Source: Ruminococcus sp. (lineage in GTDB: Bacteria > Bacillota > Clostridia > Oscillospirales > Ruminococcaceae). From it: DNA of 57,938 nt. The stretch lies in contig JAFVCV010000031.1 in the NCBI GenBank assembly GCA_017478965.1, positions 1-57,938 on the forward strand, written 5' to 3'. The position numbers were made by a program, and so were the translations under genes. The notes beneath the pieces are model-generated. The model ran no database searches. It worked only from the letters and a program-made list of their open reading frames with translations, and was not told the origin of the DNA. This document shows, in pieces, positions 43,473-57,938 of the stretch (position 1 is its first letter; every line of letters begins with the position of its first letter).

Positions 43473-44423
43473 TTATTTGAGATACTCCACTCCTTTTATT
43501 ACAACACCTTTGTAATCGTCGATATCAAGAAGCTCATTAAATGTTATATAGGAATGATCTCCCATATAGCAAAGGTCGTAATAGCTGTCAAGAGGGATCA
43601 TTTCACCATCTGCTCCTATAAACCGGATATCAAGTGTTTCATCTATGTCTCCATCGTAATCGTCCTCTGACCATGCCGCAGGCTCACAGTATATCTCGTA
43701 TTCCGAAAGAGTGATAGTCCTGCCGTCAGCACTTTTCAGCTTTGCGCTTTTGATATTTTTATCAGCCGGTATTTCTGTCTCACAGTCGAACCGGATAGGA
43801 ACATTGTTATTGTCTCTCTGTCCTGTGAGAGTTCCATATCCGTAATAATTATCTGTCTCGCCGTGCTTATGGAACAGCAGTTTGATACCTCGTGACATAT
43901 CAACGTCGCTTGTGTTAATAAGTATAGGCTGACGGTTCTCGCCGTATTTTTCCGTTCCGTCGAAATAAACACTGGTGTTGCAGTTGTTAGTGATGAATTC
44001 TCCGTTGTCAGCATACACTGCCGTTATCCCGTAGCCCAGCCGATCGGGAGACATATACTTAATTCCACTGTCCGTCAGGTTCTCCACTGTAAGCACACCA
44101 TAAAGCTGACAGCCGTCGTACAGCACAGTTTCCACAGTAAATCTGAGCTCGCCGTCGTCAGTGACCGCATTTGTGATAAGTTTGCGGCCTTCCAGCTCAT
44201 CAGAACTCTTGATGATATGCTCTACGTTCTCCTTGTGGATAAATGTATTATAGGCATATGCCCCCGCAGGTATCGCAAAAGCCATCGCCGCCGCTATCCC
44301 GACTGCTAACTTTACCGCCAGCTTTTTGGGTCTGTTCTGCCTTACAGTATGCTCCCTGCTTGCTGACATTATGAATTTTTCGTCCAGTCCGTTCATTGCT
44401 TTCAATATATCATTTCCGTTCAT
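43473..44423 (-). CDS. Membrane anti-sigma factor, DUF4179-like
   Basis: The 316-residue partner of the ECF sigma factor encoded immediately upstream (ATGA overlap, 4 nt). The cytoplasmic N-terminus (1-36) starts NGNDILKAMNGLDEKFI, the likely sigma-binding part. One membrane helix spans about 37-60. The extracytoplasmic part of 255 residues is beta-rich with no enzyme motif, as in DUF4179 proteins. Its N-terminus is clearly related to that of the serpin fusion at 54571 (DIL, then DEK/DDK, at the same spacing). The signal is unknown. Confidence 0.82.
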   Translation of the reverse strand: MNGNDILKAMNGLDEKFIMSASREHTVRQNRPKKLAVKLAVGIAAAMAFAIPAGAYAYNTFIHKENVEHIIKSSDELEGRKLITNAVTDDGELRFTVETVLYDGCQLYGVLTVENLTDSGIKYMSPDRLGYGITAVYADNGEFITNNCNTSVYFDGTEKYGENRQPILINTSDVDMSRGIKLLFHKHGETDNYYGYGTLTGQRDNNNVPIRFDCETEIPADKNIKSAKLKSADGRTITLSEYEIYCEPAAWSEDDYDGDIDETLDIRFIGADGEMIPLDSYYDLCYMGDHSYITFNELLDIDDYKGVVIKGVEYLK

Positions 44424-44986
44424 GGCCGTACTCCTTTCTTGTCTAAAAATCTCCTGAGTTCTTCTCTCGTCCTGTGAAGAGCAGTCTTGACCTTGCTTTT
44501 GGTGAAGCCCATTTCTTTTGCGATCTGCTCCACGCTTTCACCGTACCAGTACCGCTTGACGAACATATCGCACTTTTCATGCGGCAGCGTATCCAGAAAC
44601 TCGTTTATCAGCGCTGAAATAAACTTGTCATCGGGCGAAGCATCACGGCTCATGTCGGGTATGCACTCCTCCATTTCGTGAGTGAGCTCCACAAGCTGTG
44701 CCGAGCGCTTTGCTGTCTGCTGCTTTTCTATGATGTTGTAGGCGGTGCATCGGCAAAGCCTTGCAAGATAAGAGAAAAGATCTTCGGGCTGCTGCGGCGG
44801 GATAGATCTCCATGCTTTCAGATAGGTATCGTTCACGCATTCCTCAGCGTCACGCATATCGCTGAGAAAGCTTTTCGCAAGTCCCATCAGCCGCTTTCCG
44901 TAGCGCCTCTCCGTCCTCTCAACTGCCGACTCGTCCCGGGACAGATACAGCTCTACCAGCTCTCGGTCATTCTCATGCTCGACCAT
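44420..44986 (-). CDS. ECF-type RNA polymerase sigma factor
   Basis: A sigma-70 family factor of 188 residues with only regions 2 and 4. Region 2 holds DAEECVNDTYLKAWRSIPP, which melts the promoter. Region 4 holds VEQIAKEMGFTKSKVKTALHRTREELR, the HTH that reads the -35 box. The linker is Cys- and charge-rich. AAAGGAGG precedes the ATG by 8 nt. It is followed with a 4-nt overlap by its anti-sigma gene. A TGTAACC element (45040-45046) upstream may be part of an auto-regulated promoter. Confidence 0.92.
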   Translation of the reverse strand: MVEHENDRELVELYLSRDESAVERTERRYGKRLMGLAKSFLSDMRDAEECVNDTYLKAWRSIPPQQPEDLFSYLARLCRCTAYNIIEKQQTAKRSAQLVELTHEMEECIPDMSRDASPDDKFISALINEFLDTLPHEKCDMFVKRYWYGESVEQIAKEMGFTKSKVKTALHRTREELRRFLDKKGVRP

Positions 44987-53361: not shown

Positions 53362-54483
53362 ATGAGAGCTTTTCTGAAAAAACACAAGGTCGTGAGAGTT
53401 TTGATAAAAATAGCAGTGATAATATTGGCATTAGTCATATTTGCGTTGATCTTCATGCGGGTCTATCCCGCCTTTGGCGGCAGACCCACAAGCAAAGACC
53501 GCAAGGATCACGCAAAGCGTGCAGAGGGCTATTTTGACGGCAGGCATTTCAACTATCCGTCAGAGTGGGAGCTTGAAGGTATAAATGCTGACAACAGAGT
53601 GTCCTCAAAAGGGACCGTCCCCAAGGACCCTCTTCCCGTTGAGACCCCCGATCTCACAAAGGCGGCTGACGACGATGTGACGGTAACATGGCTGGGTCAC
53701 GCTTCTTCTCTGATTCAGATGCACGGCAAGAATATTCTGGTGGACCCTGTGTTCAGCAAACGTGCATCGCCTGTGCAGTGGGCGGGTCCCGCAAGGTTCA
53801 CCGAGCCGTCGGTCACGGTCGATGATCTGCCTGAGATAGACGCTGTGCTCATCACTCACGACCATTACGACCATCTCGATATGGACACTATAAAGGCGCT
53901 GGAAAGCAAGACGGAGCATTACATAGTCCCCCTCGGTATCGACAAGCACATCACCCGCTGGATCAGGGACGACAGCAAGGTGACAGATCTTGCCTGGTGG
54001 GAGAGCTGTGATCTTGACGGGCTGGAAATATACTGCACTCCCGCCAACCATAAATCCGGCAGAGCGCTTGATAATCAGCAGACCACACTTTTCTGCTCGT
54101 GGGTCCTGAAGGACGAATATCATCAGATATTCGAGAGCAGTGACACAGGCTACGGCGCACATTTTGAGGAGATATATAAGCGCTTCGGAGAGTTCGACCT
54201 GTTCATGCCCGACAGCGGTCAGTACAGCGTAAACTGGCACTACTGGCATATGTTCCCTGAGGAAAGCGCCCTGGCCGCAGAAACACTTCACGCAAAGGCG
54301 GTCATGCCGATACATTGGGGAGCCTTCGTGCTCAGCGACCACGGCTGGGACGACTCGCCCGAACGTGTGACTATAGCCTGCGAGGAAAAGGGGATCGAGG
54401 TCATAACACCCAGGCTTTGCGAGACAATGTCTCTGAATGATTCGGAGAATTATCATGAGCGCTGGTGGAGAGCTCTCGAATAA
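53362..54483 (+). CDS. Membrane-anchored MBL-fold hydrolase (NAPE-PLD-like)
   Basis: A 373-residue protein with an N-terminal membrane helix (about 11-33) and an extracytoplasmic metallo-beta-lactamase domain. VTWLGHASSLIQM, VDPVFSKRASP, LITHDHYDHLD (HxHxDH), SSDTGYG and VMPIHWGAF make up the zinc site. This set is that of the NAPE-PLD/RomA group, which cleaves phospholipid-type phosphodiesters or related substrates. Substrate here unknown. No ribosome site stands at the usual distance; AGGAG is 15 nt upstream. Confidence 0.85.
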   Translation: MRAFLKKHKVVRVLIKIAVIILALVIFALIFMRVYPAFGGRPTSKDRKDHAKRAEGYFDGRHFNYPSEWELEGINADNRVSSKGTVPKDPLPVETPDLTKAADDDVTVTWLGHASSLIQMHGKNILVDPVFSKRASPVQWAGPARFTEPSVTVDDLPEIDAVLITHDHYDHLDMDTIKALESKTEHYIVPLGIDKHITRWIRDDSKVTDLAWWESCDLDGLEIYCTPANHKSGRALDNQQTTLFCSWVLKDEYHQIFESSDTGYGAHFEEIYKRFGEFDLFMPDSGQYSVNWHYWHMFPEESALAAETLHAKAVMPIHWGAFVLSDHGWDDSPERVTIACEEKGIEVITPRLCETMSLNDSENYHERWWRALE

Positions 54484-54570: not shown

Positions 54571-56034
54571 TTACTGAACAGGGTTATTCACAATACCAAC
54601 AAACAGCGGCAGTCCCGTATCACTCATTATCTCAAAGATAAAGGGTCTGTCCAGTATGAACTCTGCATGACCTTCGGGTTTTACTGCTCCTATATAGTTC
54701 ATGACCGTCAGCGATGCCGCCTTGCAGCCTTCCTCGTCAATGATGACTCTCGTATCCTGTTCGGCTTGACTAATGTATATGTTGTCTGTACTGTCTGTCA
54801 GAGGAGTAAAGTCTGAGTTATCGGCATTAAAAATATCAGTAATGCCAAGCGAACTTAGCCCTTCACGAAGATCAATTTTTGAGGAAACATCAAATTTCGG
54901 AACAGACATTTTTACTGTCACATACTTGTTGTTCGGGAAGTTCCCTATACTGAGCATATGCCTTTTGACCTGTTCATCATTTAGCAGATCATCGGGAGAA
55001 TACCCCTCATCAGGAAGTATCAGCTTCATGTGACCATTGTTTTCAAGTTGTAAGCTGACCGAAGAAAAATGCTCTCCCCAGCAATATCCCATATCTCTCT
55101 CCGAGTTCATGTAGTCACATATCACATCACCATTGACACTGTGAAATACAGCCTGTTGCGTTATTTTAGGCGAAAACTTATTGTTCCATTTTCCGCTGTA
55201 ATTTACAGTAGAGGCAAGTGTCAGTATCATTTTGGGATCCATCTTTATGTCAGAAACATAATCGGTAAGCAAGCCATCGGTCTGAGCGTTCAGCCAATCC
55301 TGAAGCATTTTGCTGTAAACATCTGATGAAGGATCACCGCTGTACACAGATGAATAGTAAGTATCGGCAAGTGTGTCCACAGTGTCTTGCTTATAATCGG
55401 CATTACTGTTCGTCCACAGTGAATTGGCAAGAATACATTTAGCCATTCCATCGTCTTTATAGTTAGCCTGCCAGATCGATTTCGAGTGTGAACGCAGAGT
55501 TTCAATATCACTCTGACCAAGTACATCAAGTATCTGCTGTCTGCTGTTTCCGTCAGTGATCTCCGCCGTCATACCGAGTGCCATATACAAACTAAGCGGA
55601 GAATAAACGACATTGTCCGTTTCTGAGCTATGCAGGAATGTCTGAGTGCTGTTCAGAAAGAAAGTATTGAAACCGTCCTGATATCCCTCCGGCTGATTTC
55701 TGAGTGCCTTTTGTGCTTCGTCCCACGCATGATAAACTTCCTTATAGTCGTCCCAATCCGGATAGGCTGTCTCATCAGGATACGGGGGCATTTCGGGATA
55801 TGCTGGCGCAGCAAGGAGCATTACACGGTCGCTGCCCTTGTCAGAAGAGGGAATGATTGTATCATCGCCTGTTTTCGGGAGTATAGAAACACAAGCAATT
55901 ATCGCCGCCGCACATATACCGCCGAGTGCTGTCCACTTGAAGATACTGCTCTTTTTCTTTTTAACTGTCAGATCGGGAACGAGCTTATCATCTGTATCAC
56001 CGATCACATCAAGAAGAATGTCCTTGTTTTTCAT
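54571..56034 (-). CDS. Membrane-anchored serpin with anti-sigma-like N-terminus
   Basis: A 487-residue fusion. Residues 1-28 (KNKDILLDVIGDTDDKLV, then KKKKK) match the N-terminus of the anti-sigma at 43473. One membrane helix spans about 32-53. After a Pro/Tyr-rich linker a full serpin domain runs from about 115 to 487: NVVYSPLSLYMALGM, ANSLWTN, LTLASTVNYSGKW, KMSVPKF and the C-terminal RPFIFEIMSDTGLPLFVGIV. The hinge of the reactive loop is DEEGCKAASLTV, which fits inhibitory serpins apart from Cys at P14; the cleavage site falls near IGAVKPEG. The gene overlaps the sigma gene by 4 nt. I infer an anti-sigma factor whose sensor is a protease trap. Confidence 0.88.
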   Translation of the reverse strand: MKNKDILLDVIGDTDDKLVPDLTVKKKKSSIFKWTALGGICAAAIIACVSILPKTGDDTIIPSSDKGSDRVMLLAAPAYPEMPPYPDETAYPDWDDYKEVYHAWDEAQKALRNQPEGYQDGFNTFFLNSTQTFLHSSETDNVVYSPLSLYMALGMTAEITDGNSRQQILDVLGQSDIETLRSHSKSIWQANYKDDGMAKCILANSLWTNSNADYKQDTVDTLADTYYSSVYSGDPSSDVYSKMLQDWLNAQTDGLLTDYVSDIKMDPKMILTLASTVNYSGKWNNKFSPKITQQAVFHSVNGDVICDYMNSERDMGYCWGEHFSSVSLQLENNGHMKLILPDEGYSPDDLLNDEQVKRHMLSIGNFPNNKYVTVKMSVPKFDVSSKIDLREGLSSLGITDIFNADNSDFTPLTDSTDNIYISQAEQDTRVIIDEEGCKAASLTVMNYIGAVKPEGHAEFILDRPFIFEIMSDTGLPLFVGIVNNPVQ

Positions 56035-56582
56035 ACGCCTACGCCTTCCTTTTCTAAATATCTTTTCAGTTTGTCCCTTACACGCTGTAATATCATCTTG
56101 ACAGCTCCCTCAGATATGTCATTACGTTTTTCTATCTCGGCTACAGGCATTATGTACCAGTAACGCAGGAGAAATATGTTTCTGTTTTTTTCAGGGAGAC
56201 TGCATAGAAAGCTGTTCAAAAGCTCCCTTAACGCAAGCCTGTCCTCTATCGGGCTGTCCTCTCCGATACATTCTCCAAGTTCATCAAGGCATAACGCCGT
56301 TTGTCCGCCGCCGTATTTTTGCGACCTGTCCCTGCGATATTTGTCTATTGCAAGGTTTCGTGTGATCCTGCCGAAGAACAAAGCCAATCGCCCGGGCTTT
56401 TCAGGGGGCATCGTATTCCAAGCCCGAAACCACGTGTCATTGACGCACTCCTCTGTGTCCTTCGCAGAATGAAGAATATTGTTTGCAATCGTACTGCAAT
56501 AGCCGCCGTATTTCGTCTGGCTCTCATTTATTGCAGATTCATTTCTCTGCCAGTAAAGCTCTATGATGTGAAGATCTTCCAT
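56031..56582 (-). CDS. ECF-type RNA polymerase sigma factor paired with the serpin
   Basis: A sigma-70 family factor of 183 residues. Region 2 includes DTEECVNDTWFRAWNTMPP and LALFFGRITRNLAIDKYRR. Region 4 includes IFLLRYWYIMPVAEIEKRNDISEGAVKMILQRVRDKLK. The start is the ATG at 56582, after AAGGAGG with 6-7 nt spacing; the frame continues to 56627 without a site. ATGA overlap with the serpin gene fixes the pair. An ECF-like promoter lies upstream, so it probably drives its own operon. Confidence 0.92.
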   Translation of the reverse strand: MEDLHIIELYWQRNESAINESQTKYGGYCSTIANNILHSAKDTEECVNDTWFRAWNTMPPEKPGRLALFFGRITRNLAIDKYRRDRSQKYGGGQTALCLDELGECIGEDSPIEDRLALRELLNSFLCSLPEKNRNIFLLRYWYIMPVAEIEKRNDISEGAVKMILQRVRDKLKRYLEKEGVGV

Positions 56583-56613
56583 AGCGCACCTCCTTGATGC
56601 CACTTTACCCTTA

Positions 56614-56641
56614 TAGACGAGATTCATATCGCTCAGGTAAC
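56614..56641 (-). promoter_or_regulatory. Candidate ECF (auto-regulated) promoter of the sigma-serpin operon
   Basis: Minus strand: GTTACC (56636-56641), 16 nt, CGTCTA (56614-56619). The AC-containing -35 and CGTC -10 with 16-nt spacing are typical of ECF sigma factors, not of sigma-A. Confidence 0.55.
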
Positions 56642-57210: not shown

Positions 57211-57938
57211 TCAAAAGCTCGAGTTTATGGGCTTTTTGTCACCCTCCACATTGCACGTTTTAGGAGTTTTGTCATCGCCCGAGAAGTGCAGATACCAATC
57301 GAAGGAGTTCTCATTCACCACTATTTTTTCTACAAATGCTTCGATAACTGCTTCGGGAATATCTTCATCAGTGTCGAAATTCGTGTACCGTTCAAGAGCA
57401 TACCTCAGCAGAGTGATACGCTCATTGTAGTCGGGAACATCACTTGTCTCTGTGACTTTTTCCGTGGGCGAAAGCTCGCATATCTGCTCCTGCAAAGAGG
57501 CTATCTGCGTATCGACTTCCGACTTCATGTTCATGAACTGCTCTTTTGTTATCTCATCGTCAGCCCTCATGGAGATGAGTTTGTTCAGACGCTTTTCCAG
57601 TTTATCAAGCTCTGCCTTTTTCTGTGCGATAATCTCGGTGTTGTCCTCGACTTCTTCCGTGTCGTCGATATGCTTTTCAAGCATCTCCTCGGCAATATCA
57701 AGTATCCTGTCGGTGTTCCTCAGAAACTCACGGAACAGATTCTTCGCCATGAACTGTAACTTCCACCCCGGTATCATCTGCGAGGTGCAGATACCCTCCG
57801 TGGGCAGTCCCTTTTTCAGCCTTGTCCGTATAGTTCCGTTGCGTATCTGCGAGTAGCACATATACCCGTACTGCGTACCCTTTGATGTGGTGTGCCATAC
57901 CTTGCGGTTGAATGTGCATCCGCAGGAGCATACCAACA
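57211..57938 (-). CDS. Large serine recombinase, C-terminal part (cut by the window edge)
   Basis: The last 242 residues of a site-specific recombinase; the catalytic N-terminus lies beyond the window. The visible part starts in the zinc-ribbon (VCSCGCTFNRKVWH, then YGYMCYSQ and GICTS for the second Cys group). The long coiled coil follows (about 105-170, EIIAQKKAELDKLEKRLNKL), and a final domain has ALERYTNF and AFVEKIVVNE, typical of TndX/Tn4451-type integrases. Such enzymes move integrative elements, so an element or a remnant extends to the right. No attachment site could be recognised. Confidence 0.88.
   Translation of the reverse strand, partial: LVCSCGCTFNRKVWHTTSKGTQYGYMCYSQIRNGTIRTRLKKGLPTEGICTSQMIPGWKLQFMAKNLFREFLRNTDRILDIAEEMLEKHIDDTEEVEDNTEIIAQKKAELDKLEKRLNKLISMRADDEITKEQFMNMKSEVDTQIASLQEQICELSPTEKVTETSDVPDYNERITLLRYALERYTNFDTDEDIPEAVIEAFVEKIVVNENSFDWYLHFSGDDKTPKTCNVEGDKKPINSSF

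Follow-up and report, generated by a model that had tools for sequence, protein, structure and literature searches.

We found that a membrane serpin (P0001) is paired with an ECF sigma factor (P0002) and, judging from its sequence and those of its relatives, is fitted to that sigma factor at its N terminus. Both genes lie in a 57,938-nucleotide stretch of Ruminococcus sp. DNA, the whole of which we refer to as the window. On this evidence, P0001 very probably acts as an anti-sigma factor. A sequence-only reading of the window had proposed that the serpin holds and controls the sigma factor. The pairing and the N-terminal fit were supported by gene overlaps in relatives, by a domain swap, by an N-terminal profile, and by a promoter, and the reading as a whole was partly supported.

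P0002 matched TIGR02937 at 68.4 bits (cut-off, 42.9), and both Sigma70_r2 and Sigma70_r4 were found above the Pfam cut-offs. The sigma and serpin genes overlap by ATGA, as the sequence-only reading had claimed, at the coordinates given in Table 1 on the minus strand. The short cytoplasmic N terminus, single helix, complete serpin domain, and inhibitory-type hinge that it had described were all recovered in the 487-aa protein. Because the gene 3′ of the serpin gene (53362-54483, plus strand) is convergent, the operon appears to consist of two genes. Co-transcription with the adjoining ECF sigma gene is predicted from the overlap in P0001 and from its recurrence in relatives. The window's genome contains a second serpin (L001), which is lipoprotein-like and has no sigma gene inside its 4.1-kb locus. 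At the edge of the window, a reading frame on the minus strand (57211-57936) resembles the C-terminal portion of large serine recombinases.

Table 1. Features of the sigma-serpin gene pair, in window coordinates
Feature	Position	Strand	Basis
ECF sigma factor gene, 183 aa (P0002)	56031..56582	minus	TIGR02937, Sigma70_r2, Sigma70_r4
Membrane serpin, putative anti-sigma factor, 487 aa (P0001)	54571..56034	minus	PF00079; 4-nt overlap with sigma gene
Cytoplasmic N-terminal segment, residues 1-30, proposed sigma-binding module	55945..56034	minus	kept while the outer domain swaps; profile retrieves sigma-adjacent membrane proteins
Membrane helix, residues 34-52	55879..55935	minus	hydropathy and charge
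Linker motif APA-YPEM, residues 76-82	55789..55809	minus	possible signal-peptidase (AxA) site, then YPxM motif; cleavage inferred
Serpin domain, residues 123-485	54580..55668	minus	two profile searches, E 3.8e-63 and (PF00079) 1.3e-62
Hinge and reactive-center loop region, about residues 433-464 (DEEGCKAASLTV...RP)	54643..54738	minus	sequence reading, hinge comparison
Ribosome-binding site AGGAGGT of sigma gene	56588..56594	minus	read from sequence
ECF-type promoter-like element GTTACC-N16-CGTC before sigma gene	56616..56641	minus	conserved in 10/10 aligned relatives

We surveyed genomes for PF00079 at the level of the genus (29 genomes, 21 with a match) and of the family (297 genomes, sampled evenly from a larger set, of which 75 had a match). 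We read gene contexts in the loci returned by the searches and in further retrieved stretches, leaving out a few short fragments from the family search (in G309, G222, and G266). The survey yielded 136 distinct serpin domains, 10 of which were fused directly behind a sigma gene and 20 of which were unfused with a sigma gene at most 2.6 kb upstream; for another 102 there was no sigma gene nearby, and in 4 the upstream DNA was too short. Within 1.8 kb of the serpins in the two surveys, same-strand sigma genes were found 24 times upstream (0.105 per kb over 227.5 kb) and twice downstream (0.0096 per kb over 209.3 kb), and one sigma gene was found upstream on the other strand. In a search of 295 genomes of the order with a profile of 13 fusions, matches that included the N terminus came from at least 24 genomes, with 8 families among the matches listed. 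The class search (341 genomes) gave a single match outside the order that included the N terminus (L186, in G641).

The search for other sigma genes adjoining membrane serpins, which the sequence-only reading had suggested, brought the collection to 42 distinct serpin domains directly behind an ECF sigma gene (hereafter, fusions), a total that pools loci from the surveys with best-hit loci and does not measure frequency. Starts could be assigned in 41 of these: 39 overlap the sigma gene, and 2 are separated from it by gaps of 15 and 23 nt; the remaining one (L037, from Lachnospiraceae TWA4) also overlaps but is affected by an assembly gap. In addition, we observed split operons, in which a sigma gene is followed by a separate membrane or acidic-linker protein and then by a lipoprotein or dockerin-like serpin (L065, L066, L069, L086, L140, L058, L067, L091, L050, L077, L128, L134, and L137).

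A quick tree of 195 serpin domains placed 39 of 41 fusions in one branch of 47 rows (SH-aLRT, 100). The other 8 rows of the branch are five serpins that lack the N terminus (L131, L136, the first copy in L138, L173, and L181), one whose sigma gene is about 250 nt away (L168), one that keeps the N terminus with no sigma gene found in its locus (L180), and the second of two serpin fusions that stand in tandem behind one sigma gene in L179 (G462). L174, which is also in this clade, has an atypical N terminus. Conversely, L186 has the same type of N terminus but falls outside the clade, and L193, which was not in the tree, has the N terminus together with a frameshift and no adjacent sigma gene. 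The sequence-only reading had counted homologous serpins with neither the N terminus nor a sigma neighbor as evidence against itself; many of these exist, as the 102 of 136 above indicate, but they lie mostly outside the fusion clade. A further, independent sigma-serpin fusion outside the clade (L190, in G763) differs in both its N terminus and its ECF sigma factor and has a long Thr/Pro-rich linker, so the joining of serpins to such proteins seems to have happened more than once.

The strongest evidence that the N terminus faces the sigma factor is that the sigma factor and N terminus are kept together while the outer domain is swapped. In four loci (L038 to L041), an almost identical sigma factor is followed by a protein that shares only residues 1-54/62 with P0001 and whose outer domain is unrelated. 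When a serpin fusion (L034) was compared with one of these (L041), the sigma factors were 97% identical (178/183), residues 1 to 30 were 87% identical, and the helices were 71% identical, whereas the outer domains could not be aligned (global score, −46). For a second serpin fusion (L032) against L041, the corresponding values were 93% for the sigma factor, 100% for residues 1 to 30, and 71% for the helix. The window's own genome holds a paralogous pair of sigma factor and membrane protein (L143; G000:C33:28221-28760), with a sigma factor 63% identical to P0002 and a non-serpin outer domain. This outer domain (FGxMGFEGLMAYDISELD..., in L143 and L038 to L041) had no Pfam match at E up to 5 when L041 was searched, and it is a candidate sensor domain that swaps with the serpin.

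We built a profile from 32 fusion N termini (32 residues each) and ran it on 6,550 start-anchored windows and on shuffled decoys. Scores above 10 bits were reached by 81 of the 6,550 real windows, some of which are internal starts of the fusions themselves, and by 2 shuffled decoys. The top nonfusion matches were sigma-adjacent membrane proteins (L093, 48.2 bits; L038, 44.2; L143, 16.3; L132, 15.2; and L129, 12.0), together with ten DUF4179-type partners (11.4 to 26.2 bits); one unrelated window in L128 scored 10.5 bits. From the domain swap and these shared N termini, we infer that the N-terminal ∼30 residues face and hold the sigma factor.

Among 16 sigma partners that match the DUF4179 profile, 11 were within the top 140 N-terminus scores, 10 of them above the best decoy (the window's own not being one of these), and 5 had other N termini. 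The likeness that the sequence-only reading had seen between the N terminus of P0001 and that of the DUF4179-type protein encoded at 43473 appears to hold at the level of the families and fails for that single pair: the DUF4179-type N terminus scored 7.7 bits with the fusion profile, below the best shuffled decoy (10.5 bits). Nor are DIL and DDK/DEK equally spaced, as had been claimed: they lie at residues 5 to 7 and 15 to 17 in the serpin protein vs 5 to 7 and 14 to 16 in the DUF4179 type, a spacing that is off by one. The gene pair at 43473-44986 is a second sigma/DUF4179-like pair in the window, with a DUF4179 score of 19.2 bits, below the curated cut-off of 30.1. P0001 itself gave no match to PF13786 (DUF4179) in a Pfam search with E up to 0.1, and none to the RsgI N-terminal domain in Pfam and NCBIfam with E up to 0.1; residues 1 to 61 searched alone, with E up to 5, matched only TOM20. 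Its cytoplasmic segment of ∼30 residues is shorter than the limit in a published survey of anti-sigma factors, where, in the available part of the text, proteins of <50 residues are set aside as possible class II anti-sigma factors (PMC7406223).

P0001 has a single hydrophobic stretch, and the net charge of +4 before it vs −1 after it predicts an N-in/C-out topology. The same anti-sigma topology, with a cytoplasmic N terminus, one helix near the N terminus, and an N-in charge bias, was predicted in 41 of 41 assigned fusions. Beyond the helix, a YPxM-like motif follows a stretch of small residues in 37 of 42 fusions (by a loose pattern). AxA occurs at most 40 residues past the helix in 28 of 41 fusions, compared with a mean of 15.3 and a maximum of 24 in 2,000 shuffles, a comparison that ignores relatedness; in P0001, APA lies 24 residues past the helix and not beside it. 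In tengpin, an N-terminal tail binds the serpin body and stabilizes the native state, according to the available text of PMC8233489. By analogy, the N-terminal tail of P0001 could couple the state of the serpin to access to the cleavage site, an idea to which an AlphaFold model of P0001 (8 sequences; pLDDT, 36) gave no structural support.

The match of P0001 to PF00079 (212.6 bits; cut-off, 27) covered profile positions 4 to 370 of 370, a full-length serpin by the curated cut-off, and the best matches among solved structures were tengpin and conserpin. In its hinge, DEEGCKAASLT, Gly at P15 and small residues at P12 to P10 are of the inhibitory kind, and in all likelihood P0001 is an inhibitory serpin. 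The Leu at P9 and the Cys at P14 we take to be mild departures, using a serpin numbering that we presume to apply. A Cys directly after the hinge glycine (EEGC; 54727-54729 in the window) is present in many fusions and is unusual for serpins. A neutral pattern matched the hinge of all 40 fusions whose loop could be read, of all 22 split-operon serpins, and of 119 of 125 others; since it also occurs in the latter two groups, it indicates competence and is not a special feature of the fusions. A contrast between fusions and other serpins (40/40 vs 15/22 and 72/125) was dropped because the pattern behind it had been written after viewing the fusion loops, and the neutral pattern erased it. The stretch after the hinge is Ala- and Gly-rich, and our guess is that the serpin would prefer elastase- or subtilisin-like proteases.

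Upstream of the sigma gene, ACCGTTACC (or a close form) followed by CGTCTATAAGG (or a close form), with a 16-base spacer after GTTACC, was present in 10 of 10 aligned close relatives whatever their outer domain, and the DNA further upstream differed among them. A looser −35/−10 pattern was found in 7 of 42 fusions, all of them close relatives. The promoter was not enriched in the window's own genome (6 matches vs 21 for a reversed control). In eight genomes of relatives there were 64 matches overall vs 111 for the control, with two genomes exceeding it (17 vs 5 and 7 vs 2). Of 35 promoter matches that we read, 4 had the extended form ACCGTTACC...CGTCTA, all at sigma operons, and two further sigma operons had CGTCTG instead of CGTCTA. 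The simplest interpretation, which we hold tentatively, is that the regulon is narrow and self-directed. A start-site element, TA...RRTGAR, occurred near the start in 22 of 42 fusions and far from it in 3 of 42 (shuffled mean, 4.2; maximum, 12); this pattern was chosen by eye after viewing the sequences, and the element is only suggestive. In a Ruminococcus flavefaciens record (L031), the sigma frame upstream of the serpin is 5′ truncated and the promoter element is absent.

On balance, we favor a model in which P0001 is a sigma brake with an inhibitory-type serpin as its outer domain, which would be cleaved stepwise when triggered by a protease and then replenished. The cytoplasmic N terminus would hold the sigma factor until an extracellular protease attacked the reactive loop of the serpin and became trapped. 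With the serpin altered or lost in this way, a stretch of the protein on the outer side of the membrane would become open to site-1 cleavage, for which signal peptidase, acting at an AxA site near the YPxM motif, is a plausible enzyme; site-2 cleavage would come next, and the freed sigma factor would transcribe its own operon. Using up the suicide inhibitor would in this way bring about a fresh supply of it. By analogy, protease attack is probably the signal, and the signal-peptidase route is possible, although we lean slightly against it. An M50 (site-2-type) protease was found in the window's genome, and because M50 matches were also found in 14 of 14 control genomes, its presence is weak support. 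RsiV, according to the available text of PMC5014341, is a lysozyme receptor, a lysozyme inhibitor, and an anti-sigma factor in one, and restrains sigma-V until it is cut by signal peptidase and then by RasP; site 1 is cut by signal peptidase in both RsiV and RsiP, with AxA as the usual motif (available text of PMC6066255 and PMC8844934). A fuller version of the model, which we hold tentatively and with some doubt, is a self-replenishing suicide-inhibitor circuit in which a single molecule, the serpin, would serve as sensor, as effector, and as sigma brake, with its consumption by the target protease as the signal. Loop insertion would free the YPxM tail, unmask AxA, shed the spent serpin-protease complex, and release the sigma factor, with its own operon as the main target, and serpins would have been recruited in this way at least twice (in the main clade and in L190).

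The N terminus may instead be a real anti-sigma segment to which the serpin is attached purely as an effector, with the sigma factor answering some other signal, for example, envelope stress, and the serpin acting as an on-demand surface inhibitor. The split operons favor this arrangement because they place the serpin as an output; they account for 20 of the 136 surveyed serpins, and in most of those viewed a membrane anti-sigma-like protein stands in between. Those with secreted or dockerin serpins also agree with a broader association of ECF sigma factors with serpins. In the fusions, however, the serpin makes up the whole outer domain of the anti-sigma segment, and the same pair of sigma factor and N terminus occurs with another outer domain, which is what one would predict if the signal is determined by that domain. 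We consider a serpin that is only an effector unlikely, while giving it appreciable weight. A further alternative is that binding of a protease or another ligand triggers site-1 cleavage with the loop neither cleaved nor inserted. The analogy with RsiV speaks for such passive reception, as RsiV is activated by lysozyme binding (available text of PMC5014341 and PMC6066255), but retention of the hinge in every readable fusion fits selection for loop insertion, and we regard passive reception as quite improbable.

Finally, P0001 could be an ordinary membrane serpin that happens to adjoin an unrelated sigma gene, as the large share of surveyed serpins with no nearby sigma gene (102 of 136) might suggest. 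The overlap in 40 of the 42 fusions (the 39 with assigned starts and L037), the strong same-strand upstream bias of sigma genes, and the shared N-terminal profile all argue against this. We rejected chance adjacency on the basis of the recurrent overlap, the strand bias, the N-terminal profile, and the domain swap, and we assign it only the slimmest probability.

If the favored model of a protease-triggered sigma brake is true, bacteria would sense attacking proteases with a dedicated receptor that turns irreversible serpin trapping into transcription. It would extend the RsiV idea, that inhibitor, sensor, and anti-sigma factor are one, from lysozyme to proteases; it would link serpin conformational change to gene control; and it would help to explain the large number of serpins retained by gut Clostridia. 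Further, it could yield protease biosensors for the gut. We found no serpin anti-sigma factor in the available text of the CC-licensed PubMed Central literature.

Several known systems share part of this arrangement. The cellulosomal dockerin serpins (PMC12484212) and the siropins (PMC5127057) are likewise serpins of gut or cellulolytic clostridia that are thought to ward off proteases, but they are secreted or cellulosome bound, and the available passages of these two sources do not mention sigma factors. Tengpin and the group T bacterial serpins include the best solved match of P0001, and the tengpin tail controls the metastable native state; in contrast to P0001, no transmembrane or anti-sigma segment is described for them in the available text of PMC8233489. 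Like P0001 and its relatives as we read them, the RsgI anti-sigma-I factors of cellulolytic clostridia are membrane anti-sigma factors whose sensing domains lie outside the cell and are interchangeable within the family. They differ in that RsgI senses polysaccharides by CBM/GH modules and pairs with SigI, according to the available text of PMC3413522 and PMC12484212, whereas P0001 has no RsgI match in the searches above. Closest in predicted behavior is RsiV/sigma-V of Bacillus subtilis, where a membrane anti-sigma factor adjoins an ECF sigma gene, the outer domain both senses and inhibits the attacker, and the site-1 cut falls just outside the membrane (available text of PMC5014341 and PMC6066255). 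P0001 differs from the RsiV type in giving no DUF4179 match, and its outer domain is a serpin, predicted to be an irreversible suicide inhibitor of proteases, whereas RsiV is a reversible lysozyme binder.
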